Position numbers and translations under genes: made by a program. Under the pieces are notes generated by a model, which saw nothing but the letters and a program-made list of their open reading frames with translations, ran no database searches and had not been told where the DNA came from. A stretch of 9,809 nt of DNA from Candidatus Nanoarchaeia archaeon (lineage in GTDB: Archaea > Nanoarchaeota > Nanoarchaeia > SCGC-AAA011-G17 > JAFCDX01), in contig JAQUND010000054.1 of assembly GCA_028717785.1 (NCBI GenBank), positions 1 to 9,809 of the forward strand, given 5' to 3'. Positions 1 through 9,735 of this stretch are shown here, piece by piece; the stretch's first letter is position 1, and each line of letters opens with the position of its first letter.

Positions 1-1745
1 GAAGAGTCTAACCCGCCTCCACCAGACATTCTTCCTGTTTCAGTACCATGAAGTTTATACCCTCCATATAATACATTATTATAAATAGAACCCATAAAAC
101 CAGAGTGTTCTTCATTTTCTTCAATATTATTTTCTTTATCAAAGAAATTAAATGATAATTGATTTTCTTTTATCTCTTTTATTTTATTTTCTTGAACACC
201 AAATTGTGATATTTCTTTTGTAATGTGATTATATTCGACAATCAATTTTGCAAAGTCATAACCCTTTTCTGTAGCATATCGTTCTAATGTTTCTTTATTT
301 AACACAAGATCTTTATTTTTTGTCAATAACTCATTCTCTTTGTCATCTAATAAAGGTGTAAAATTTGGTATACTTCTAAATACTTCAGATAGTTGTTTAC
401 TACTATTTATATTGACTTGTTTGCCTGCAATATTATAAATACTATTTTCAATCTCTTTTGCTTTTTCTTTAAGTTGATTAGAATACTCAACCATATAATT
501 CATATCTACTTGAACACCTGTCATTTCAACATCTATTATCATCTTGATAGCAGGAATAATATAATTATAATAATTGTCTTTTACAAAAGAATCTTCTAAT
601 TCAAATCTTTTTTCAAAATATTCTTGAACTTGATAAGTCAATATAGAGTCCATACAAGCATATTCTAATAATAGTTCTTTAGGAAGTTTTGTAAAATCTT
701 GCAATTTAAATTTTTTTAAATATTGATTTAACTTATTTTCATAACCACCATAATTTGTATACAACCATGCAAGAGACTTTAATCCATTTGGACTATTTTC
801 ATTTAAAATATGAGCTGCAGTCATTGTGTCAAAATCACACCGTGCATTAAATATTCCTGCTTGTTTTAACATCTTTATATCATATTGAGGATTTTGATAT
901 GTCCATATTATATCTTTTCTTTTAAATAATTCAATTAATAAGTTTTTATCTATCTTGTCAAATAAACAAAAATGTCCTTCATAAAAATTAAATGAAAATT
1001 GTATACTGTAGATTTTATCTTTGATCCAATTCAACCCTGTTGTTTCTGTATCAATCGAAATTTTCTTAATATCTTTATTATTAATTAAATTATTCAGAAA
1101 TTCATTTGGATTAAGCTCTTCATAAAATTTACATTTCTGAATTCTTCTTACTTTCTCTTTTAAATTATCAATGGCTCTTTTTATTTGCTGTATTGAAAAT
1201 TTATACTCATATACATCTAAAACTTCATTATCTTTTATCCATTGATATAGTGGCGGTATAGGAAATATGTTACAATTATATTCTGAAGAATAAATAAAGG
1301 CGTCATCTAGTTGATACAATTGTTCTGACCCATTAACTGGAATAAAAAAATTATTATATTTAAGTAATTTACTTTCTGTAATAGTATACAATGCTCTTCC
1401 AGTTGTTATAATGACTTTTGGTTTTAGTTGTTTTATAATTTTATCAATATGAAATTCTTTGCACTTACTATATGTATGTACTGTATCCGATGAAGAGAAT
1501 CCACTTGGAGTACAACCTAATGCTGGGACTAATGCAAAAGAATATTGTGATAATATATTAAAACAAATTTTTTTAAATGGTTCAAATCGCACCGATGTTT
1601 CTTTATGTTCTAATAAAATTAAAATATCAACATCTTGCTGTGGCCTATTTTGTATAATTTCTTTATATGTATCTTGAAAAATAGCATTTTTTCTTGCTGG
1701 ACAATTACAACTCGGCATTTCTTTTTTTTGAAAAAAATCATTCAT
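1..1745 (-). CDS. polA: Family A (PolA-type) phage DNA polymerase, N-terminal UDG-like domain, 3' end missing at window edge
   Basis: This gene encodes the replicative DNA polymerase of the phage; 581 codons are visible and the rest lies beyond the left edge. Residues about 1-170 resemble the uracil-DNA glycosylase superfamily: a CxCP start (Cys13, Cys15), a VDILILLE strand (39-46), and KPKVIITTGRAL (108-119). The expected catalytic GExPG is LEHKET and the His-Pro motif is PIPP, so this domain is probably not an active glycosylase. A DnaQ-like proofreading exonuclease follows, with Exo I D232-T-E234, Exo II N285/D289 and Exo III Y362xxxD366. The palm begins at HGTETGRMSG (566-575), matching the family A TxTGRLSS motif; the later catalytic motifs are off the window. 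The ATG at 1745-1743 has AAGGA (1753-1757) seven bases upstream and follows the dCMP deaminase gene by 33 bases. Bacillus phage SPO1 polymerase is a known case of a UDG-like N-terminus. The family call is firm; the role of the N-terminal domain is inferred. Confidence 0.93.
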   Translation of the reverse strand, partial: MNDFFQKKEMPSCNCPARKNAIFQDTYKEIIQNRPQQDVDILILLEHKETSVRFEPFKKICFNILSQYSFALVPALGCTPSGFSSSDTVHTYSKCKEFHIDKIIKQLKPKVIITTGRALYTITESKLLKYNNFFIPVNGSEQLYQLDDAFIYSSEYNCNIFPIPPLYQWIKDNEVLDVYEYKFSIQQIKRAIDNLKEKVRRIQKCKFYEELNPNEFLNNLINNKDIKKISIDTETTGLNWIKDKIYSIQFSFNFYEGHFCLFDKIDKNLLIELFKRKDIIWTYQNPQYDIKMLKQAGIFNARCDFDTMTAAHILNENSPNGLKSLAWLYTNYGGYENKLNQYLKKFKLQDFTKLPKELLLEYACMDSILTYQVQEYFEKRFELEDSFVKDNYYNYIIPAIKMIIDVEMTGVQVDMNYMVEYSNQLKEKAKEIENSIYNIAGKQVNINSSKQLSEVFRSIPNFTPLLDDKENELLTKNKDLVLNKETLERYATEKGYDFAKLIVEYNHITKEISQFGVQENKIKEIKENQLSFNFFDKENNIEENEEHSGFMGSIYNNVLYGGYKLHGTETGRMSGGGGLDS

Positions 1746-1778: not shown

Positions 1779-2207
1779 TTAAATTTTTTCTACAAGAATT
1801 CCTACATTTTGTAACAATTGCATTCCCGATAAATCTCTATACTCTTCTCGATAAAATACTTTTTTAATCTTACTTTGTATTATTAATAAAGAACATTGAA
1901 GACAAGGCATTAAAGTTATATATAATGAAGCATCTTTTGTAGATAATCCTTGTGCAGCAGCCTTACAGATGGCATTAGTTTCCGAGTGAATCACTTCTTT
2001 TTTTGTAACAATATTTCCTTGATCATCAATCTCTTCACAATCATTAGACATCCCCGCAGGCATTCCGTTGTATCCATAAGCAATAATATTATGATCCTTT
2101 ACAATTATACATCCCACTTTATTTCTTATAGCTTGAGACATCTTAGAAGCTTCAATTGCCATATTTATATACATTAAATCATACTGCTTAATTCGTTCTT
2201 CATTCAT
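1779..2207 (-). CDS. cd: dCMP deaminase (deoxycytidylate deaminase)
   Basis: This 142-residue, full-length enzyme deaminates dCMP to dUMP in the cytosol, feeding thymidylate synthesis. The zinc-dependent cytidine deaminase signature is clear: H74-S-E76 (usually HAE; Glu76 is the proton shuttle) and PCLQC at 101-105, giving ligands His74, Cys102 and Cys105. The NGMPAGMSNDCE stretch (47-58) is typical of dCMP deaminases, such as the T4 Cd and ComEB families. The start codon lies inside the end of the hydroxymethylase gene, with an 8-base overlap, and no strong Shine-Dalgarno sequence is visible, so translational coupling is likely. Deaminase and hydroxymethylase compete for dCMP, so their tight linkage suggests balanced flux between dTMP and hydroxymethyl-dCMP. 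In T4-type enzymes the activator is dCTP or hydroxymethyl-dCTP; whether that holds here cannot be read from sequence. Confidence 0.94.
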   Translation of the reverse strand: MNEERIKQYDLMYINMAIEASKMSQAIRNKVGCIIVKDHNIIAYGYNGMPAGMSNDCEEIDDQGNIVTKKEVIHSETNAICKAAAQGLSTKDASLYITLMPCLQCSLLIIQSKIKKVFYREEYRDLSGMQLLQNVGILVEKI

Positions 2208-2916
2208 AACTTTTTACAATATTTTTTATCATATCAAAATCACGTTCATATACATGAAAACTATTTACTTTCCAAATAATTTCACCAATTTTAATAGTAT
2301 TATATTTTTCTTTTAATTCATTATAAAATTTATTATATACAAAACAATGCCAAGGAAAATCTGAAAAAAATCCTGCCTTAAAATCATTACTTCTCATATC
2401 AACTATATAAATTAATTTATTATTTCTAATAAATTGTTGAGTATAAAATGTACAAATATAATCACTCATTCTGTTTTTATTATACTCTTTAGTTATTGAC
2501 GGACGATTATAAATCATACATGCTCTACGAGAATCTTGATTATTTACTAATTCATCTAATGAAAAGTTATATTGATAATAATTTTCTTTTGAAAAAATAC
2601 ACCATCCATAATTTGAGTTTATTTCTTTTTTATTATCTTTAGTACATACTTGATTCCAAATTTGAATATCATCTACATAATTTATAATTGATAAAGATTG
2701 TGATAAATACCAATTTAATTCTTTTTTAACATAATTTTCTGGAGTTTTACGTATATTATTAAAATTTAAATTAGGTTGCAATGGATTTAATTTATCGATT
2801 TTAATACATAATATCTCTACACATTTAACACCGGTCTTATCAACAATAAAATCTTTTTGTTGAATTTTATTATAAAATTCTAAAATATACGGAAAAATAA
2901 TTTGTTCATTGTTCAT
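2200..2916 (-). CDS. 42: Deoxycytidylate (dCMP) hydroxymethylase, T4 gp42-like
   Basis: This 238-residue member of the thymidylate synthase superfamily resembles T4 gene 42 product (about 246 residues) along its whole length, from my recollection of that protein. Shared blocks include KDFIVDKTGVK (21-31), KELNWY (65-70), EINSNYGW (98-105), DSRRACMIYNRPS (128-140), SDYICT (151-156), DMRSND (173-178) and SFHVYERDF (219-227). Cys155 is the expected nucleophile, Glu66 matches the catalytic Glu, and Arg130-Arg131 match the phosphate-binding pair. Asp186 (SDFPW) falls where T4 has Asp179, the residue that favours cytosine over uracil; true thymidylate synthases have Asn. The expected reaction is dCMP plus methylene-tetrahydrofolate and water to 5-hydroxymethyl-dCMP. 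Residues just after Asp186 (FPWH) differ from T4 (YAWQ), so base preference should be tested. It overlaps the kinase gene by 11 bases and the deaminase gene by 8. A dUMP hydroxymethylase is the main alternative. Confidence 0.9.
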   Translation of the reverse strand: MNNEQIIFPYILEFYNKIQQKDFIVDKTGVKCVEILCIKIDKLNPLQPNLNFNNIRKTPENYVKKELNWYLSQSLSIINYVDDIQIWNQVCTKDNKKEINSNYGWCIFSKENYYQYNFSLDELVNNQDSRRACMIYNRPSITKEYNKNRMSDYICTFYTQQFIRNNKLIYIVDMRSNDFKAGFFSDFPWHCFVYNKFYNELKEKYNTIKIGEIIWKVNSFHVYERDFDMIKNIVKSYE

Positions 2917-3799
2917 AAATAATCTCTTCTAATAATTGCTTATATTGTAATTGTTTATCATGATGAAATCTAAAGTAATATTGAGGATGAGGAATTTTAT
3001 AGTATTTGATATTTAATTTTTTAATTAATTTTTCTGTTTTATTTCCTAATGCAATAATTTTGTATGGATTTATTAAATTAATTTCTTCTTTTAATAATTC
3101 AAGATCTTTATCTTCATTTAAAGTTTTATATGCATTTGTTAAATAAAAATTATTATAGTTCATTAATGATAACGCTTCATGTAAAAATCTTGATGAATTA
3201 TGCAAATTAGTAAATGTTTTATTCATTTCTTTACCATAAGAAAATTTTGTATTACCTCCATATTTTTCTCCTATTAACATAATAGAATTATTAATAGATC
3301 CAATGCTTTCGTATTTTTTATATTTATTATAATCTACATTTTCTAAATCTAATAAAAAATTATCTTTTATAAAATCGATTTTATATTTTTGTAAAATACT
3401 TCTTTCAAAACAAATATTAAAATAATTTTCTTCTTTTTCAATCTCATTTACATTTACATAATCTTCTCCTCGAGTTTCAAATATATTTTTTTTAAAATCA
3501 AATGAAGTATTACAGTACAATAGTATAGCTCCTTTAATCTGAAGAATTCTTTCAATAAGATGTTGTTGCCATAATAATAATGCATCTCTTCCATCTTTTT
3601 TTAACATCGGATACACATATTCACCAAGATGAAAACGATCTACAACAGCATCATCATATTCTAGAGCTTTTTCTAAATAATATTGAGCACCTCCATTAGG
3701 TTTACTTTCTTTAATATATTTTAAATTATATTGTTTTACTAGTTGTTTTGCTAAAGTTGTTTTACCGACACCGTTGGGTCCTTCTAATATTATAAGCAT
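2906..3799 (-). CDS. Deoxynucleoside monophosphate kinase fused to a uracil-DNA-glycosylase-like domain
   Basis: This is a two-domain protein of 297 residues. Residues 1 to about 160 form a P-loop kinase of the thymidylate/deoxynucleoside kinase group: Walker A GPNGVGKTT (7-15), a D54-R55 motif in AVVDRFHLGEYVYP, and a lid-like ETRGEDY (108-114). Residues about 170-297 resemble the uracil-DNA glycosylase superfamily: MLIGEKYGG (174-182), FYLTNAYK (218-225), KIIALGNKTEKLI (247-259) and an intact His-Pro motif in IPHPQYYFRF (269-278). The acidic motif-A residues of active family 4 enzymes are not obvious. By position before the hydroxymethylase, the kinase may phosphorylate 5-hydroxymethyl-dCMP, the job done in T4 by unrelated-looking gp1. 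The role of the second domain is unknown: base sensing, nucleotide hydrolysis or base excision are possible. The ATG directly follows the methyltransferase stop codon and has AAAAGGA (3809-3815) nine bases upstream. Confidence 0.85.
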   Translation of the reverse strand: MLIILEGPNGVGKTTLAKQLVKQYNLKYIKESKPNGGAQYYLEKALEYDDAVVDRFHLGEYVYPMLKKDGRDALLLWQQHLIERILQIKGAILLYCNTSFDFKKNIFETRGEDYVNVNEIEKEENYFNICFERSILQKYKIDFIKDNFLLDLENVDYNKYKKYESIGSINNSIMLIGEKYGGNTKFSYGKEMNKTFTNLHNSSRFLHEALSLMNYNNFYLTNAYKTLNEDKDLELLKEEINLINPYKIIALGNKTEKLIKKLNIKYYKIPHPQYYFRFHHDKQLQYKQLLEEIIYEQ

Positions 3800-5020
3800 T
3801 TAAAATAATCCTTTTTTAATTATCTTAGTATGATCTTGTACTGTTATAAATCTATTAATCTTTTGAATATCTACATTAAAATTTAAAATATCTATAGCCC
3901 ACTGAATGGCAATTTTTGCTGTATTAACTGGAATTGCTTGACATATATGATTTATATTTTTAATGGGATTTTCTAATATAAAATCATTAGGCATTCCCAT
4001 TAAATACATTAGTTCTTTTATTGTAAATGGTCTTATCTCTTTTGATATTGGATTTATAGTATTAAATACACTCTTACCACAAATAGCATTTATTTTTCCT
4101 TTAATGATAGAAGGACTTATATCCCAAAATCCTTTATTATCCAATAATTTATTTTTTATATATATTGCTTTTTCTTTAATATCTAGATCATCATTAAATA
4201 TATCATTATTCTTATCATATTCCTTTAGTAAATATCTCCAAGTACTTATAACGTATTCAGATTTATCTTTATTCTCTTTTTTTATCTTATCTATTATATT
4301 ATAATATATAATATATTTTAATAATTTTTTAACATAATTATTTTTAAGAACAACGTTATGAATATCATCTTGATCAACTATTAAATTTCTTAAATAATTT
4401 TCAATAGAAATTATTGGTTGATTATAATTTTTTAATAAAAAGGATTTGCTATTTTTTGATATGATTAAAAAACTTCTTAAACGATATTGAGGTAAGCCAT
4501 AATTAATTGTATTAACTTTAATTAAGTTAATCTTATATAGATCTAAAACATTATTGAATTCAAAGATAGATTGAATTTTTTTAAGAACTTTATCACCTTC
4601 TTTTCCTATAAGTCCAGGAGCATTTTCCATTATTAAAATTTTGTTATTTTGCGCAATAAACCACTTTACTGTTTCAAAAATAAAATAATTTGTTTTAGAT
4701 TCAGCAGATCGATTAGCACTATTTAACAATGATAATCCACCACATGGAGGAATTGCTAACATTAGATCAGTAAAATTTATCTTATTATCAAAAATATATT
4801 TTTTATATTCTTCTATTGATAGAGAATTGTTAATAAAATTATAATCTAAATAAGATATATTTACTTTTTTATTATTTATAAGATGTTGTTCATTTTTTTT
4901 AAACCCATCAAAAGAAAAAATATATTCATACTTTAATTCATCTTTAATTTCTTTATTATATTTTTCTTGAGCTAAATAAAAAGAACCAATTAATGGTATA
5001 AAATGTGTTATTGAATACAT
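3800..5020 (-). CDS. C5-cytosine DNA methyltransferase-fold protein with degenerate motif I
   Basis: This 406-residue protein has most catalytic motifs of DNA cytosine-5 methyltransferases: motif IV PPCGGLSLLN (91-100) with nucleophile Cys93, motif VI ENA (132-134), motif VIII QYRLR (178-182), a long variable region (about 190-325) where a target-recognition domain would sit, and the C-terminal block RPFTIKELMYLMGMP (330-344) plus QAIPVNTA (361-368). Motif I, normally FxGxGG for SAM binding, reads FIPLIGSF (7-14), so it has lost one or two glycines. An ordinary methyltransferase is the default reading. Its place between a hydroxymethylcytosine glycosyltransferase and the hydroxymethyl-dCMP genes makes the substrate uncertain, because phage cytosines should already be substituted at C5. 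It overlaps the glycosyltransferase gene by one base (TAATG), with AAAGGA at 5031-5036. Fold assignment is firm; activity and specificity are not known. Confidence 0.85.
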   Translation of the reverse strand: MYSITHFIPLIGSFYLAQEKYNKEIKDELKYEYIFSFDGFKKNEQHLINNKKVNISYLDYNFINNSLSIEEYKKYIFDNKINFTDLMLAIPPCGGLSLLNSANRSAESKTNYFIFETVKWFIAQNNKILIMENAPGLIGKEGDKVLKKIQSIFEFNNVLDLYKINLIKVNTINYGLPQYRLRSFLIISKNSKSFLLKNYNQPIISIENYLRNLIVDQDDIHNVVLKNNYVKKLLKYIIYYNIIDKIKKENKDKSEYVISTWRYLLKEYDKNNDIFNDDLDIKEKAIYIKNKLLDNKGFWDISPSIIKGKINAICGKSVFNTINPISKEIRPFTIKELMYLMGMPNDFILENPIKNINHICQAIPVNTAKIAIQWAIDILNFNVDIQKINRFITVQDHTKIIKKGLF

Positions 5021-6264
5021 TAAAATAAAGTCCTTTTCTTAAACGGTATAGAATACGATAACTGCTTAAAATTTTGCATTGTATCTATCATTTTTTTAAA
5101 AACAACATCTGAAGAATACACTTGAATAGATTCAAATGAAGTGTCATAATATTTTTTTCTTAATTCTAAATTTAAAAATATTTCATTCATGTTAAATGCA
5201 CATTCTTCTGCATTTGATAAATCTTTCTTTAAAAAAATTCCAAAATTTATTATTGTATTTAAACTTATATTATTTATTTTTGTATGTAATGACCAATCAT
5301 AATCAAACAGTGGGATTAATCCAACACTAATCATTTCTAATTGTGCATATTCTATATTATTTCCATTTGCATCTGAGTTAATATTATAAAAAGAACAACC
5401 AAATAAACTGTCTCCAATTTCATTAAGAGTTTTTTCTCTTTCATACGGTCCATATACATAGGGCAACTGTATGTCTTGTTTTGATCTTATAGTATAAAAT
5501 TTTTTACTATCAGTACAATCAAACATTTCTATATTATGTTTTGAAGTTTTCATATCAGAAAATTTAAACATTGGAAATACAGCCCCAATAGAACGTTCAA
5601 TTCCAATAAGTTCACTTTTAAAATTATATCTTTTTATATAAGAGTGAAAATTATATAAACGAAAAGGATCTTTAAAAGTTGCATATCTACCTAAATAAGT
5701 TACTCGTTTTTCTCTATCTTTAATATCTTTTCTATATTTAAGAAGTTCTTTAAAATTAATACCATTCTGTAAAAAAATATATTTATTAAGAATATTTTTT
5801 CCATACCTTATTTTTAATTCTTCAAAAAATGGACTTTTATTTGAAAATGAAAATATACCATCCATCTTTTCATTTATTTCGTATAAATTAGCATTGCGGG
5901 CTAAACTTTGTTTTTTATGATCATTCTGTGTACTAAATTTTTTTGGTTTAATCACATCACAAATTAGATAATTATAAAAATCATCAATACATTTTTGTGA
6001 AAACCCTTTTTTTGCGGGGATAGAACAATAAAGAATTAAGTCAAATTCTGTATTTAATTTAATAGATAATTCTTTAAATTGATCTACTTCAATTAAAGAA
6101 TAATTTATTATATTTTGTAAATTTTTTCGAGGCCAAGATTTTTCATTTACTGCAAAAATATGAGAATACATATTATTTTCATTTATATAATTATTTAATT
6201 CGGTTGCAAATCGAGTAACTCCCGCACCCTCAATTCCTCTACCTAATATTAATGCAATTTTCAT
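5020..6264 (-). CDS. agt: DNA alpha-glucosyltransferase-like enzyme (T4 Agt family) for hydroxymethylcytosine
   Basis: This 414-residue protein resembles T4 alpha-glucosyltransferase (about 400 residues), which transfers glucose from UDP-glucose to 5-hydroxymethylcytosine in DNA. Matching blocks, compared from memory of the T4 protein, are GRGIEGAGVTRFATE (8-22; T4 has ARGLEGCGVTKFSLE), NDH (114-116) with the following SLARN, YLGRYATFKDPFRLYNFH (190-207), GIERS (221-225) and YAQLEMISVGLIPLF (306-320), whose Glu310 fits the nucleotide-sugar ribose position of GT-B enzymes. The two-Rossmann GT-B layout is complete. Sequence cannot fix the sugar: relatives in some T4-like phages may use others such as arabinose. 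The ATG overlaps the dUTPase stop by one base, with a strong AGGAG (6272-6276) seven bases upstream inside the dUTPase coding region. With the gp42-like gene in the same cluster, the joint signal for glycosylated hydroxymethylcytosine DNA is strong. Confidence 0.88.
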   Translation of the reverse strand: MKIALILGRGIEGAGVTRFATELNNYINENNMYSHIFAVNEKSWPRKNLQNIINYSLIEVDQFKELSIKLNTEFDLILYCSIPAKKGFSQKCIDDFYNYLICDVIKPKKFSTQNDHKKQSLARNANLYEINEKMDGIFSFSNKSPFFEELKIRYGKNILNKYIFLQNGINFKELLKYRKDIKDREKRVTYLGRYATFKDPFRLYNFHSYIKRYNFKSELIGIERSIGAVFPMFKFSDMKTSKHNIEMFDCTDSKKFYTIRSKQDIQLPYVYGPYEREKTLNEIGDSLFGCSFYNINSDANGNNIEYAQLEMISVGLIPLFDYDWSLHTKINNISLNTIINFGIFLKKDLSNAEECAFNMNEIFLNLELRKKYYDTSFESIQVYSSDVVFKKMIDTMQNFKQLSYSIPFKKRTLF

Positions 6265-6704
6265 TATTTATCTCCTGTACTTCCAAAACCACCGTCTTTA
6301 CGTTCTGTATTAACATCTACCTCATTTACTAATTTTGGGACTCCATTCCAGACCGGAAATACAAGTCCTTGGCATATCTTATCACCTTTAGTAAATGTAA
6401 CTTCATGATCAGAATTATTATATAAATGTGCATGAACATTTCCACGGTAATCACTATCAATCACACAAGCTAAAATGTCACATTTCTTTTTAGTTGCAAT
6501 ACCACTTTTTTCTTTCATTATAAGTGTGTATCCCTGTGGCATTTCAACACAAATGTCTAGAGGAATTAACACATCTTTTCTTGGTTCAATAATGATATTT
6601 ATTGGTGTATAAAAATCTAGACCTGCAGATTCTTTAGTACCTCGTGTTGGCATTTTTGCATTTTCAGATAATAACTGAATATTTAAATAAAAATTTTTAA
6701 ACAT
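6264..6704 (-). CDS. dut: dUTPase (trimeric dUTP diphosphatase)
   Basis: This 146-residue protein has the usual length and all five motifs of homotrimeric dUTPases: motif 1 AGLDFYT (27-33), motif 2 KEKSGIA (64-70, Lys where Arg is common), motif 3 VIDSDYRGNV (81-90) with the catalytic Asp and uracil-stacking Tyr86, motif 4 GDKICQGLV (107-115) and the C-terminal P-loop-like motif 5 RKDGGFGSTG (135-144). It hydrolyses dUTP to dUMP and pyrophosphate, which limits uracil in phage DNA and supplies dUMP. T4 instead has an unrelated dCTPase-dUTPase (gp56) that also destroys dCTP; nothing here shows dCTP activity. GGAG (6711-6714) sits six bases before the ATG, and the start overlaps the end of the small upstream gene by eight bases. 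Confidence 0.96.
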   Translation of the reverse strand: MFKNFYLNIQLLSENAKMPTRGTKESAGLDFYTPINIIIEPRKDVLIPLDICVEMPQGYTLIMKEKSGIATKKKCDILACVIDSDYRGNVHAHLYNNSDHEVTFTKGDKICQGLVFPVWNGVPKLVNEVDVNTERKDGGFGSTGDK

Positions 6705-6876: not shown

Positions 6877-7131
6877 TTACCTTTTAATTGTAGTTTCAAA
6901 GCCATAATATTTTGCAAATGAAGAGGGAATAGAGTCTGCTGCCACCTTTATATATGAATCTATTCTTTCTTTTGAATAATTAGTTTCTTTTTGTAAATAA
7001 CTTAAAAATGACATTAATTGATTTTCTGAATCACCAACAAAATCATCTTTTAATTTACATACAATACTTAACATCATATAGAATCTTATACTATTAATAA
7101 TATCTGATACTTCAAAAAATTTATTACTCAT
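6877..7131 (-). CDS. Small helical protein, function unknown
   Basis: This gene encodes 84 residues and is not recognised. The sequence looks mostly alpha-helical and soluble: a first amphipathic segment (about 6-30, ending VCKLKDD), a linker FVGDSEN (31-37), a second helix with LSYLQKE (43-49), and a Tyr- and Ser-rich tail ending KYYGFETTIKR. It has no signal peptide or clear membrane span and a single cysteine (25). The start is well supported, with a strong AAGGAG (7139-7144) seven bases upstream of the ATG. It follows nrdD by 47 bases and precedes the Cys/Trp-rich small gene by six, so it is probably co-transcribed with the nucleotide-metabolism genes. A small replication or reductase accessory factor is possible, but nothing in the sequence shows it. 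Confidence 0.78.
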   Translation of the reverse strand: MSNKFFEVSDIINSIRFYMMLSIVCKLKDDFVGDSENQLMSFLSYLQKETNYSKERIDSYIKVAADSIPSSFAKYYGFETTIKR

Positions 7132-7178: not shown

Positions 7179-9185
7179 TTATTGATTTATTTCAAAATCT
7201 CCATTCTTAAATTCTTTACGTCTTTTAAAATCATATTCCCTTTTATAGAATGACCAATCTTTTACATTTGTAAAAAAACCTACGACTCTAGAAATTTTCT
7301 CAATTATTTTACCTGAACAAATTGGACACAAATCTTTATTACCAATTGTTACATGTCCATTTTCACATTTACAGAAAGCAGAATTTATAGCAAAATGCTC
7401 ACAATTACTTTCTACTGCAAAATTAATCAATTTTTCTGCTTGCTTACTTGTAATATGTTCACCAACTGTTATATGACTAATGCCACCTCCAGTTAGCATA
7501 GATAAATATTTTCCATCTATTTTCATTTTATCCCAAACAGTTGTTTGATTATCCCATAGTGGAATGAATTGATTCGCATATAAATTATAAGAAACTATTT
7601 TATCATTAAATAATAATTTATCTGCACGGGGTAATCTATGTGCCATTGCCTCAGCGGGCACCTGTTCTACGTTAATAAAAATTTCATTAAAATCTTCTTT
7701 ATTTATATCTAAATTATTATTTAATATAAATAAACTATCTTTAATTGCATCCTCATTTTTTGTATAAATTAATTTTTTCTTTAAAATTTCATCAGCTTCA
7801 ACGTACCCAATAATCCCTATAGTTGAAAACATTTTGTCTAACTGTATCCAACCAATTTTTAAAAAATGCTGTAACCCTCTTTTTGTCGAATCTTGCAAAA
7901 GTAATTTGTGTGCTTTCAATATTTTTTTACAACTTAATGTTGAATCCTTAATTAATTGATGATACTCTTCTTTTGATTTTGCAATTAAAGCTAATCTTGC
8001 AAAGTTTATACAAACAACCCTGTGTGAACCTAATGAAATAGAACCACCAGCACCAAAACTATTTGCTTGTGATGCTAAATCTATTTTATCTTTATCCGAC
8101 CAAAGGCGACAACAACTGGCTATTTTATTTCCTTCACTTACAAAAATATTATATCTATAAATATCTTTTTTACAAATAGATTTTAAAAATTGTTTATCTT
8201 CAATTATCCAATTTCCATCTTTATTTTTTTTCTTTGATACATTTAAAGTAACTACAGGGAAACGGTAAGGCATTCCATTATTACAAGGATCACCTTTATC
8301 AAAAAATTCCATAAATATATTTTGAAGTTCAATTATGAATTCAATAATATAATTTACATCATATTTTAAATTCCCGCTATCATCTTGATAATACCATAAA
8401 TATTCTTCACCAACTAATTTTTTTAATTTCTCTCTGTCGAATAAAGATATGTTGGTAAACGGAGATTCCGATCCACCACTTCTACTTAATGAATTAAAAC
8501 CATGTACTATTCTTTGAAATTGATTTTCAATATATTTTCTATATTCTATATTTTTTAAATCTTCAATTGTTTTATTTTCTTTTAATAAAAGTAAATGTGT
8601 AATATCAAGAAGGAATGATCCTACTGCAATCGCCCCAGCAAGAGAATTACTCATTTGATGAACAACTTCATTTAACAATGAAATATATGAGTCAACTCTT
8701 TTTACAGGTTTTGATGGTAATTGCCCAAAAGGTTTTCCAAAACTAATTAATTTTGATGCGTCGAAACTCCAACAGTATGGAATTTTTATTTGTCCTGAAT
8801 CTGAAATTGCTAAAGTATAATCATACATTAAACTTGTTAAATAAGATGCCTCTTTCTTACCATACAATTCATTCATTTTTCTATATAAAGCGCGATACCC
8901 TATTGTTTTCTTTATAGGAGTTACTGCTTCTTGGAAAATTCCTGAAACAGTTTTTTCTTTATTAGCATTATCATCAATTGTAATATCATTTAAATTCCCC
9001 TCTTCTAACTCCTCATATTGATTTATTATTGAAAAACTGTCTTTGTCTAAACCATGTATTTTTAAAATATTATTTGTAGTTTCTTCTAATTTATTTTCAG
9101 GTATCTTATAATATTCTCGAAGTCTATTTTCCAATGTTTTATAAATCAAATTTGATGCTTGAGCTATACTTGTACTATTATGCAT
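7179..9185 (-). CDS. nrdD: Anaerobic (class III) ribonucleoside-triphosphate reductase, large subunit
   Basis: This 668-residue glycyl-radical enzyme reduces ribonucleoside triphosphates to deoxyribonucleotides in anaerobic cells. The barrel is seen in IPYCWSFD (135-142), the Gly/Ser-rich GGSESPFTNISL (237-248), GMPYRFPVVTLNVS (304-317), ASCCRLW (356-362) with Cys359 as the likely thiyl-radical cysteine, and the GAGGSISLGSHRV run (378-390). Near the C-terminus, CKC (605-607) and CPIC (620-623) form the zinc site, and RVVGFF (633-638) carries the glycyl radical at Gly636. An N-terminal ATP-cone is not apparent; residues 1-80 are a short, charged lead. The start has an excellent AGAGGTG (9188-9194) only a few bases before the ATG, and the gene follows nrdG by 13 bases. 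It needs NrdG for activation and is inactivated by oxygen, so it implies anaerobic infection. Whether formate or a thioredoxin-like donor is the reductant cannot be settled here. Confidence 0.95.
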   Translation of the reverse strand: MHNSTSIAQASNLIYKTLENRLREYYKIPENKLEETTNNILKIHGLDKDSFSIINQYEELEEGNLNDITIDDNANKEKTVSGIFQEAVTPIKKTIGYRALYRKMNELYGKKEASYLTSLMYDYTLAISDSGQIKIPYCWSFDASKLISFGKPFGQLPSKPVKRVDSYISLLNEVVHQMSNSLAGAIAVGSFLLDITHLLLLKENKTIEDLKNIEYRKYIENQFQRIVHGFNSLSRSGGSESPFTNISLFDREKLKKLVGEEYLWYYQDDSGNLKYDVNYIIEFIIELQNIFMEFFDKGDPCNNGMPYRFPVVTLNVSKKKNKDGNWIIEDKQFLKSICKKDIYRYNIFVSEGNKIASCCRLWSDKDKIDLASQANSFGAGGSISLGSHRVVCINFARLALIAKSKEEYHQLIKDSTLSCKKILKAHKLLLQDSTKRGLQHFLKIGWIQLDKMFSTIGIIGYVEADEILKKKLIYTKNEDAIKDSLFILNNNLDINKEDFNEIFINVEQVPAEAMAHRLPRADKLLFNDKIVSYNLYANQFIPLWDNQTTVWDKMKIDGKYLSMLTGGGISHITVGEHITSKQAEKLINFAVESNCEHFAINSAFCKCENGHVTIGNKDLCPICSGKIIEKISRVVGFFTNVKDWSFYKREYDFKRRKEFKNGDFEINQ

Positions 9186-9198: not shown

Positions 9199-9735
9199 TT
9201 AATAAAATTTTAGTACTCCGTTTTTACTTAACTGCTTATACTCTGCATCATAGAAATTTTGATTCTTTGATGCTAATTGCATTCTGTAATCATCCTTAAA
9301 AGATTCTTGTTTCTTTTTCTCCTCGTATTTGCCACACTTTAAAAATTTAAATCCAGTTATGTTTTGCTCTTTTACATAATCAATTTCATATCCCGTATAA
9401 ATACATATTGAATATTTATTTCCATTCTCCTCGCAAAACTTTTTTGTAAAATATAAATTATTTTTATGTAAAGGATCGCCCCCACTTAAAACAATTGCTT
9501 CAACTTGATCGTTCTTTTGCATGAATTCATTAATGAGTCGAATAGCTGTATTTGTATGTATTTCTACAGTACCTTCAATTTCTTGTTCTGAATCCTGAAG
9601 TTGTGGGTTATGACAATTTTTGCAATTATGTTCGCAACCTGTAAGATATACTACAAGTGAACAAAAATAAGGATCTGGATAATCCTGAAATGATATTGAA
9701 AATGGGTAAGCAAGTTTAATAAGTTTTGAATCCAA
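9199..9735 (-). CDS. nrdG: Anaerobic ribonucleotide reductase activating protein (radical SAM)
   Basis: This 178-residue radical SAM enzyme uses a 4Fe-4S cluster to make the adenosyl radical that installs the glycyl radical on NrdD. The cluster motif is C34-x3-C38-x2-C41 (GCEHNCKNCHNP), followed by SGGDPLH (84-90), the SAM-binding GGE-like segment, and YTGYE (113-117). The N-terminal SISFQDYPDPYFCSLVVYL matches the family's usual opening, in which the chain runs straight into the cluster loop. The start is TTG at 9735-9733: there is no ATG in frame before the cluster motif, a TAG stop lies four codons upstream, and AGGA (9743-9746) is seven bases before the TTG. Length is a little above the bacterial norm, with a Lys-rich loop (137-150). 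It is the first complete gene of the cluster, 13 bases before nrdD. Confidence 0.95.
   Translation of the reverse strand: MDSKLIKLAYPFSISFQDYPDPYFCSLVVYLTGCEHNCKNCHNPQLQDSEQEIEGTVEIHTNTAIRLINEFMQKNDQVEAIVLSGGDPLHKNNLYFTKKFCEENGNKYSICIYTGYEIDYVKEQNITGFKFLKCGKYEEKKKQESFKDDYRMQLASKNQNFYDAEYKQLSKNGVLKFY

Follow-up and report, generated by a model that had tools for sequence, protein, structure and literature searches.

A candidate cytosine hypermodification cluster in phage DNA and its C5-methyltransferase-like protein

The DNA considered here, referred to as the window, is the whole stretch of 9,809 nucleotides of contig JAQUND010000054.1 (assembly GCA_028717785.1), filed under Candidatus Nanoarchaeia archaeon. 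It belongs to a bacterial virus and carries genes by which cytosine in the viral DNA would probably be replaced with sugar-coated 5-hydroxymethylcytosine (hmC). The gene of main interest, at 3800-5020, codes for a protein resembling C5-cytosine methyltransferases (C5-MTases). It is the second-largest gene inside the span 1779-6704, on which an earlier note had been written, and was absent from that note.

Gene content of the window

Ten likely genes, compact and co-oriented, occupy the minus strand. In order of transcription, they are nrdG, nrdD, an open reading frame (ORF) of 84 amino acids (aa), and the genes of a dUTPase, an Agt-family protein, the C5-MTase homologue, a kinase fused to a uracil-DNA glycosylase (UDG) domain, a hydroxymethylase, a dCMP deaminase and a family A DNA polymerase (PolA). 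The G+C content, taken in 1-kb steps, is 19-28%. The assigned genes and their matches (E values) are as follows.

3..1745, minus strand: PolA, with the 3'-5' exonuclease and the start of the polymerase domain (PF01612 6e-17, PF00476 5e-10, phrog_17 6e-47)
1779..2207, minus strand: dCMP deaminase, 142 aa (PF00383 2.3e-24, phrog_174 1.5e-49)
2200..2916, minus strand: dCMP hydroxymethylase of the T4 gp42 type, 238 aa (PF00303 2.8e-13, 1b49 4e-50)
2906..3799, minus strand: nucleotide-kinase-like P-loop domain fused to a UDG-superfamily domain, 297 aa (PF03167 3.2e-8, phrog_761 5e-9)
3800..5020, minus strand: C5-MTase-fold protein of a phage family, 406 aa (PF00145 3.5e-20)
5020..6264, minus strand: Agt-family (GT-B) DNA glycosyltransferase, 414 aa (PF11440 3.8e-10, phrog_2888 2e-60, 1xv5 6e-17)
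6264..6704, minus strand: dUTPase of the PF00692 type, 146 aa (PF00692 2.2e-27, phrog_135 3e-45)
7179..9185, minus strand: class III (anaerobic) ribonucleotide reductase NrdD, context (PF13597 1.3e-65)
9199..9735, minus strand: NrdG-like radical-SAM activase, context (PF13353 2.8e-15, phrog_626 3e-22)

None of the Pfam, PHROGs or PDB matches of the cluster enzymes was at chance level, whereas the 84-aa ORF (6877-7131, between nrdD and the dUTPase gene) had no Pfam or PHROGs match. The earlier note had described a compact cluster, with dUTPase and dCMP deaminase, ahead of a PolA-type polymerase, and the Pfam and PHROGs matches agree with this description. The class III nrdD and nrdG genes upstream of the cluster, which the note did not mention, also fit its guess of an anaerobic host.

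Hydroxymethylase, glycosyltransferase and polymerase

The protein encoded at 2200-2916 had been called a gp42-like dCMP hydroxymethylase, and this is borne out. In the PDB comparison, it matched T4 dCMP hydroxymethylase (1b49) with an E value of 4e-50, whereas no thymidylate synthase (TS) scored better than 7e-8. It has the TS fold, and both the nucleophile Cys155 and Asp186, at the position of residue 177 of the E. coli TS, are kept. Asp186 aligns with the T4 aspartate that is Asn in the mutant entries 6l18 and 6a9a, and which we take to be residue 179 of gp42. Cys155 and Asp186 are invariant in the 23 rows of the hydroxymethylase alignment A3, which took 22 of the 30 hydroxymethylases. According to PMC8670742, an aspartate at this position goes with cytosine, and not uracil, as substrate. 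All 30 non-redundant TS-fold proteins from loci of the C5-MTase-like family or of Agt homologues were of this Asp-type, although the query was the window protein itself, which favours Asp-type matches.

A tree of the hydroxymethylases, suggested in the earlier note as a check, points in the same direction: among its 31 rows, the window protein and T4 gp42 fall in one clade (support 100/100), and the three phage synthases that could be read as Asn-type branch off elsewhere. The gp42 clade also takes in a Microbacterium synthase on a long branch, the motif of which is not readable. As judged from sequence, the 2200-2916 gene is a T4 gp42-type dCMP hydroxymethylase, for which hydroxymethyl-dCMP (hm-dCMP) is the predicted product. 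Tet/JBP proteins, as another source of hmC, were matched in 0 of 17 cases, and the control search was likewise silent.

For the glycosyltransferase of 5020-6264, PF11440 (AGT) was the only Pfam match, with 39.8 bits for a curated cut-off of 25, and T4 Agt (1xv5) was matched in the PDB with an E value of 6e-17, next to marginal AcrIIA14 rows only. In PMC6024577, G15, R204 and E311 of T4 Agt are reported as contacts of uridine diphosphate (UDP), and H114, H116 and H140 as contacts of glucose. The UDP contacts are kept as G15, R193 and E310 in all 34 rows of the homologue alignment A2, drawn from 79 (the window protein plus 78 matches, among which it occurs once more). At the glucose-contact positions, the window protein has Asn114, His116 and Phe140, so that only H116 is kept. 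The earlier assignment as an Agt-like DNA glycosyltransferase holds in that the protein belongs to PF11440 and keeps the UDP-contact residues, and it is likely that 5020-6264 encodes such an enzyme. A reading of its product as glucosylated DNA is not established: with Asn and Phe in place of His114 and His140 of T4 Agt, glucose is not assured as the donor sugar, and the residues do not support this specificity. A hydroxymethylase match was present in 11 of the 16 Agt-bearing records examined (near-copies included). A second glycosyltransferase, of the TAGT type, was matched in one of 22, below the cut-off.

The product of 2906-3799 had been named a dNMP kinase. A kinase-like P-loop domain is indeed present, but its fusion to a UDG-superfamily domain (PF03167) had been missed; the UDG half alone gave a match of 6e-9. 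The same architecture is shared by gp315 of Bacillus phage G (BLASTP E value 5e-15 across both halves), which sits four genes before the Asp-type TS of that phage. The fusion is perhaps a checkpoint for modified nucleotides.

The polymerase ORF (3..1745) runs off the window edge, with its C-terminal part beyond, and matches Klenow-fragment PDB entries with an E value of 3e-9. No family match was obtained for its N-terminal region of about 200 aa; a UDG-like domain suspected there by eye found no support. PolA is the only DNA polymerase type in the window, and its nearest relative in the phage collection, among the matches listed, is 28% identical over half of the protein, with no close record listed.

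A T4-type hmC pathway in a phage with PolA was the central claim of the earlier note. The pathway reading is largely right, whereas its novelty is weak, with cyanophage S-TIM5 as a precedent and the gene set present also in phage G; the S-TIM5 genome, with a PolA match, no PolB (family B polymerase) match, an Agt, an Asp-type TS homologue and a C5-MTase-like gene, led us to reject the pairing of PolA with hmC genes as new. The S-TIM5 TS and C5-MTase-like genes lie within 4 kb of each other, and, in contrast to the window, its Agt and PolA are far away. The S-TIM5 'thymidylate synthase' (L161:1772-2608) has the cytosine-selecting Asp, yet it forms a long branch among true synthases, and the product of this homologue is a candidate only. 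A contig of 185 kb (G036) combines PolA and an Asp-type hydroxymethylase with no PolB match and no Agt. Among 38 records examined, most of them with the C5-MTase-like gene, polymerase matches were to PolB in 25 and to PolA in four.

In phage G, genes gp301, gp306, gp313, gp315, gp317 and gp319 comprise a C5-MTase-like gene, two Agts, the kinase-UDG, a dCMP deaminase and the Asp-type TS within about 15 kb. This phage differs from the window in that a gene annotated as a DnaE-like polymerase is nearby, and its kinase-UDG and Agt gp313 are 26% and 30% identical to the window proteins. With the glucosyl-hmC system of T4 (Tevenvirinae), the window has in common the gp42 clade with its Asp and Cys, and PF11440 with the UDP-contact residues. 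It departs from T4, the DNA polymerase of which is PolB, by its PolA, the two replaced glucose-contact histidines, the additional C5-MTase-like gene and the UDG-fused kinase.

The C5-methyltransferase-like family

The protein encoded at 3800-5020 keeps the catalytic Cys93, Glu132 and Arg180/Arg182 of C5-MTases, while motifs I, II and X, which bind S-adenosylmethionine (SAM), are replaced. It is 14-17% identical to M.HhaI and M.HaeIII over the structural alignment, and differs from them in these SAM-binding motifs. In order to compare motifs, 80 family sequences were set against 108 canonical viral C5-MTases; the family set excludes L163, a canonical enzyme, and L039, which matched in pieces, and alignment A1 excludes P0014 and P0017. 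The controls came from 120 loci found with a DNA pattern for PPCQGFS, in 108 of which an ORF of 250-600 aa contains PCQGFS; their motif IV is therefore fixed by construction.

The catalytic Cys (PC), Glu (EN) and both Arg (QxRxR) were present in 80/80 family sequences, and were also invariant in 49 of 49 alignment rows. In motif I, FxGxGG, found at 96-99% per position in the canonical enzymes, is P-L-x-G in all 80, none of which has the Phe or the first Gly. The motif II acid (98% of the canonical enzymes) has become Ser/Thr, and the GN of motif X (82-84%) ends in Gln, Asn to Gln, again in 80 of 80. PCQ reads PC(A/G/S) in the family, the PCQ of the controls being set by the search pattern. The motif register is identical in a profile-profile alignment, and the patterns PLxG, PC[AGS]GLS, ENAP and QxRxR were found in 120/120 among the further matches listed. 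The family formed one group in a quick tree, which carried long-branch and composition warnings and in which 40 of the 108 canonical sequences, drawn at random, were included. Three loci hold tandem pairs (L001:9950-12383, L040:9959-12372 and L059:6843-9250); the second copy of two of them has an ENV string by a quick pattern check, which does not establish its placement in motif VI.

Compared with a SAM-dependent C5-cytosine methyltransferase, the window protein has the catalytic motifs and lacks the SAM signature. The database label 'DNA-cytosine methylase' may be wrong for such genes.

Another phage protein of this fold is CmoX (8yf3), described in PMC12783734 as a DNA C5-carboxymethyltransferase with a non-methyl donor, carboxy-SAM. 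The likeness lies in the C5-MTase fold, the setting in a phage hypermodification system and a changed motif X residue. However, the same text gives Phe25 in motif I, Glu47 in motif II, Arg350 in motif X and SPPC for CmoX, where the family has PLxG, Ser/Thr, Gln and (C/P)PC(A/G). The window protein has Ile8, Ser36, Gln361 and IPPC at these four places, and its membership of the CmoX group was rejected.

Relatives are encoded by 291 viral stretches, which were found with alignment queries; these were required, as single-protein scans of viral_contigs returned no relatives. In the genomes of 84,980 cellular species, one motif-pattern scan gave no match. Cultured carriers are S-TIM5, Pseudoalteromonas phage XG4 and, as a divergent member, phage G, the gp301 of which is a relative with a profile E value of 6e-45.

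Of the 82 family loci, 23 have a hydroxymethylase gene at a distance of 5 kb or less, against none of the 120 control loci around canonical C5-MTases, which average 8.9 kb, some extending less than 5 kb per side. Within 5 kb in 38 of the 82 loci, hand-picked as non-redundant, we found a glycosyltransferase-like cluster in 27, a sugar-nucleotide cluster in 25 and a hydroxymethylase in 21, the clusters being single-linkage BLASTP groups with one annotated representative each. Homologues of these three clusters were searched for in the control loci, not every glycosyltransferase, and were found in 0 of 120. Other neighbours of the family are an NTP transferase fused to a phosphotransferase domain, NAD-dependent epimerases and HAD phosphatases. 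At the level of whole contigs, a hydroxymethylase match was present on 27 of 38 family contigs and on 20 of the 22 of at least 75 kb (17 of 19 when identical C5-MTase-like sequences are counted once), against one of 30 control contigs, where the match is of the Asn-type; in the family count, the Asp was not checked one by one for hydroxymethylases outside the fetched loci. Within the lineage of the window, the four C5-MTase-like proteins that match best and their glycosyltransferase partners have equal longest contigs (42,691, 6,551, 41,502 and 19,303 bases), which suggests that the pair stays together.

The arabinosyl-hmC phage RB69 and the Shewanella phage Thanatos, with a pentose on cytosine, have a hydroxymethylase and nucleotidyltransferase-phosphotransferase proteins, a domain pairing also seen beside the family in other phages; this likeness is by description only. 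Neither was among the 7, 13, 9 and 6 records matched with four family members, their presence in the collection being unchecked.

As a separate observation, on a 185-kb PolA contig the C5-MTase-like gene stands beside a protein with a 5-hmdU DNA kinase helical domain, two sulfotransferase-family proteins and a sugar epimerase (L079:6732-12126). A sulfated or phosphorylated base is possible there.

Proposed pathway and competing explanations

We lean, with some reserve, towards reading the cluster as a cytosine hypermodification pathway joined by a C5-MTase-like enzyme that would act at the DNA level, on cytosine or hmC, without ordinary use of SAM and with an unusual donor or none. What the analysis observed directly are the families, the residues, the predicted fold, the grouping and the co-occurrence; the substrate, the product and the lack of ordinary SAM use are deduced. 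By homology, the hydroxymethylase would form hm-dCMP, the kinase would help to convert it to hm-dCTP, PolA would insert the latter into DNA and the Agt-family enzyme would add a sugar onto the hydroxymethyl group, with dCMP deaminase and dUTPase supplying the pyrimidine pools. After replication, the C5-MTase-like protein would flip out cytosine or hmC and add its Cys to C6 as C5-methyltransferases do. Since it would make no ordinary use of SAM, it would install, exchange or rearrange a non-methyl substituent at C5, most likely on hmC.

Unusual reactions are known from C5-MTases. To make room for bulky donors in M.HhaI, Q82 in motif IV and N304 in motif X were trimmed (PMC10666283); they correspond by motif to PCQ and to the GN of motif X, two positions altered in the family. 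According to PMC7176277, thiols are coupled to hmC by an engineered M.SssI, and hmC is produced by M.HhaI when formaldehyde is supplied. A more specific version, which we put forward tentatively and hold to be rather doubtful, needs no SAM at all: the Cys would add to C6 of hmC in DNA, the hydroxyl (or a sugar or phosphate ester) would be expelled to leave an exocyclic methylene, and another nucleophile would then add. If true, it would be a natural version of the thiol reaction forced on M.SssI, and novel cytosine bases would be present in hundreds of phages.

Several observations weigh against the proposed hypermodification pathway with its C5-MTase-like enzyme. Motifs II and III often retain an aromatic residue and an acid, and therefore the protein may still bind a nucleotide-type cofactor, even SAM in a new binding mode. 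In phage G gp301, motif I reads FIFGGSASIG and QxRxR is degenerate. The C5-MTase-like gene was found in only 3 of the 16 Agt-bearing records (near-copies included), so that glycosylation is independent of it. Among family contigs below 75 kb, 9 of 16 had no hydroxymethylase match (seven had one). The 30 control contigs belong to other phage types and are for the most part smaller, only five reaching 75 kb; they were picked among those listed above 40 kb, at least four others of that size (L171, L206, L224 and L240) not being included. Most of the glycosyltransferase labels among the neighbours rest on one representative with a PF13524 match below the Pfam curated cut-off. A 155-kb contig (G029; L058:4705-12608) has the C5-MTase-like gene and ThyX nearby, no hydroxymethylase match in the record, and glycosyltransferase-like, nucleotidyltransferase, radical-SAM and HAD genes as neighbours; on a 76-kb contig (G028), the only TS-fold match is an Asn-type TS. 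The link between the family and hmC is thus not absolute, though all the exception contigs may be fragments. Finally, no chemistry reported for any family member was found, nor, among the papers listed in searches of the open-licence literature, any description of the family.

The donor could instead be a derivative of SAM or some other activated compound, as carboxy-SAM is for CmoX, so that a larger group would be installed and then extended by the glycosyltransferase or other enzymes. The adenine-site residues are partly retained in the family, the motif X position that is altered in CmoX (PMC12783734) holds Gln, and by analogy with Q82A in M.HhaI (PMC10666283) the change of PCQ to PCA/PCG may make the donor channel wider. 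We nevertheless judge this unlikely: CmoX has the adenosyl-holding Phe of motif I and Glu of motif II, and Arg in motif X, and the family has none of the three. Furthermore, no donor-making enzyme was seen among the annotated recurrent neighbour clusters, about 10 of the 28 clusters being without a Pfam match or unscanned.

An ordinary DNA 5-methylcytosine methyltransferase with a diverged SAM pocket, methylating residual or host cytosine in a protective or regulatory role and having no relation to the hmC pathway next to it, is likewise an improbable explanation. The invariant catalytic residues would suit it as well, but the 80 family sequences have other residues in place of FxGxGG and the motif II acid, which hardly vary among the 108 canonical viral C5-MTases; none of the 120 control loci shows the association with hydroxymethylase and glycosyltransferase-like genes, and one motif scan found no cellular relative. 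A non-catalytic reader of cytosine or hmC, which might target host DNA or guide the glycosyltransferase, would agree with the lost SAM signature and with the glycosyltransferase-like neighbours in 27 of 38 loci, but is very unlikely, as a reader has no need of the catalytic Cys, Glu and Arg that are invariant in 49/49 and 80/80 rows.

On the sequence evidence, the C5-MTase-like gene is the most unusual part of the cluster and a new variant among C5-MTase-type enzymes. An hmC pathway in a phage with PolA, the host of which is probably an anaerobe, widens the reach of a classic modification, for which a precedent exists. The family provides a new lead: it is common in phages, is tied to hydroxymethylase and glycosyltransferase-like genes, and is built as if to attack cytosine without the usual methyl donor. 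Because the cultured phages S-TIM5, XG4 and G carry members, the product can be sought directly. If the proposal is true, a new donor, or a donor-free reaction of hmC, would be useful for DNA labelling and for understanding how phages escape restriction.

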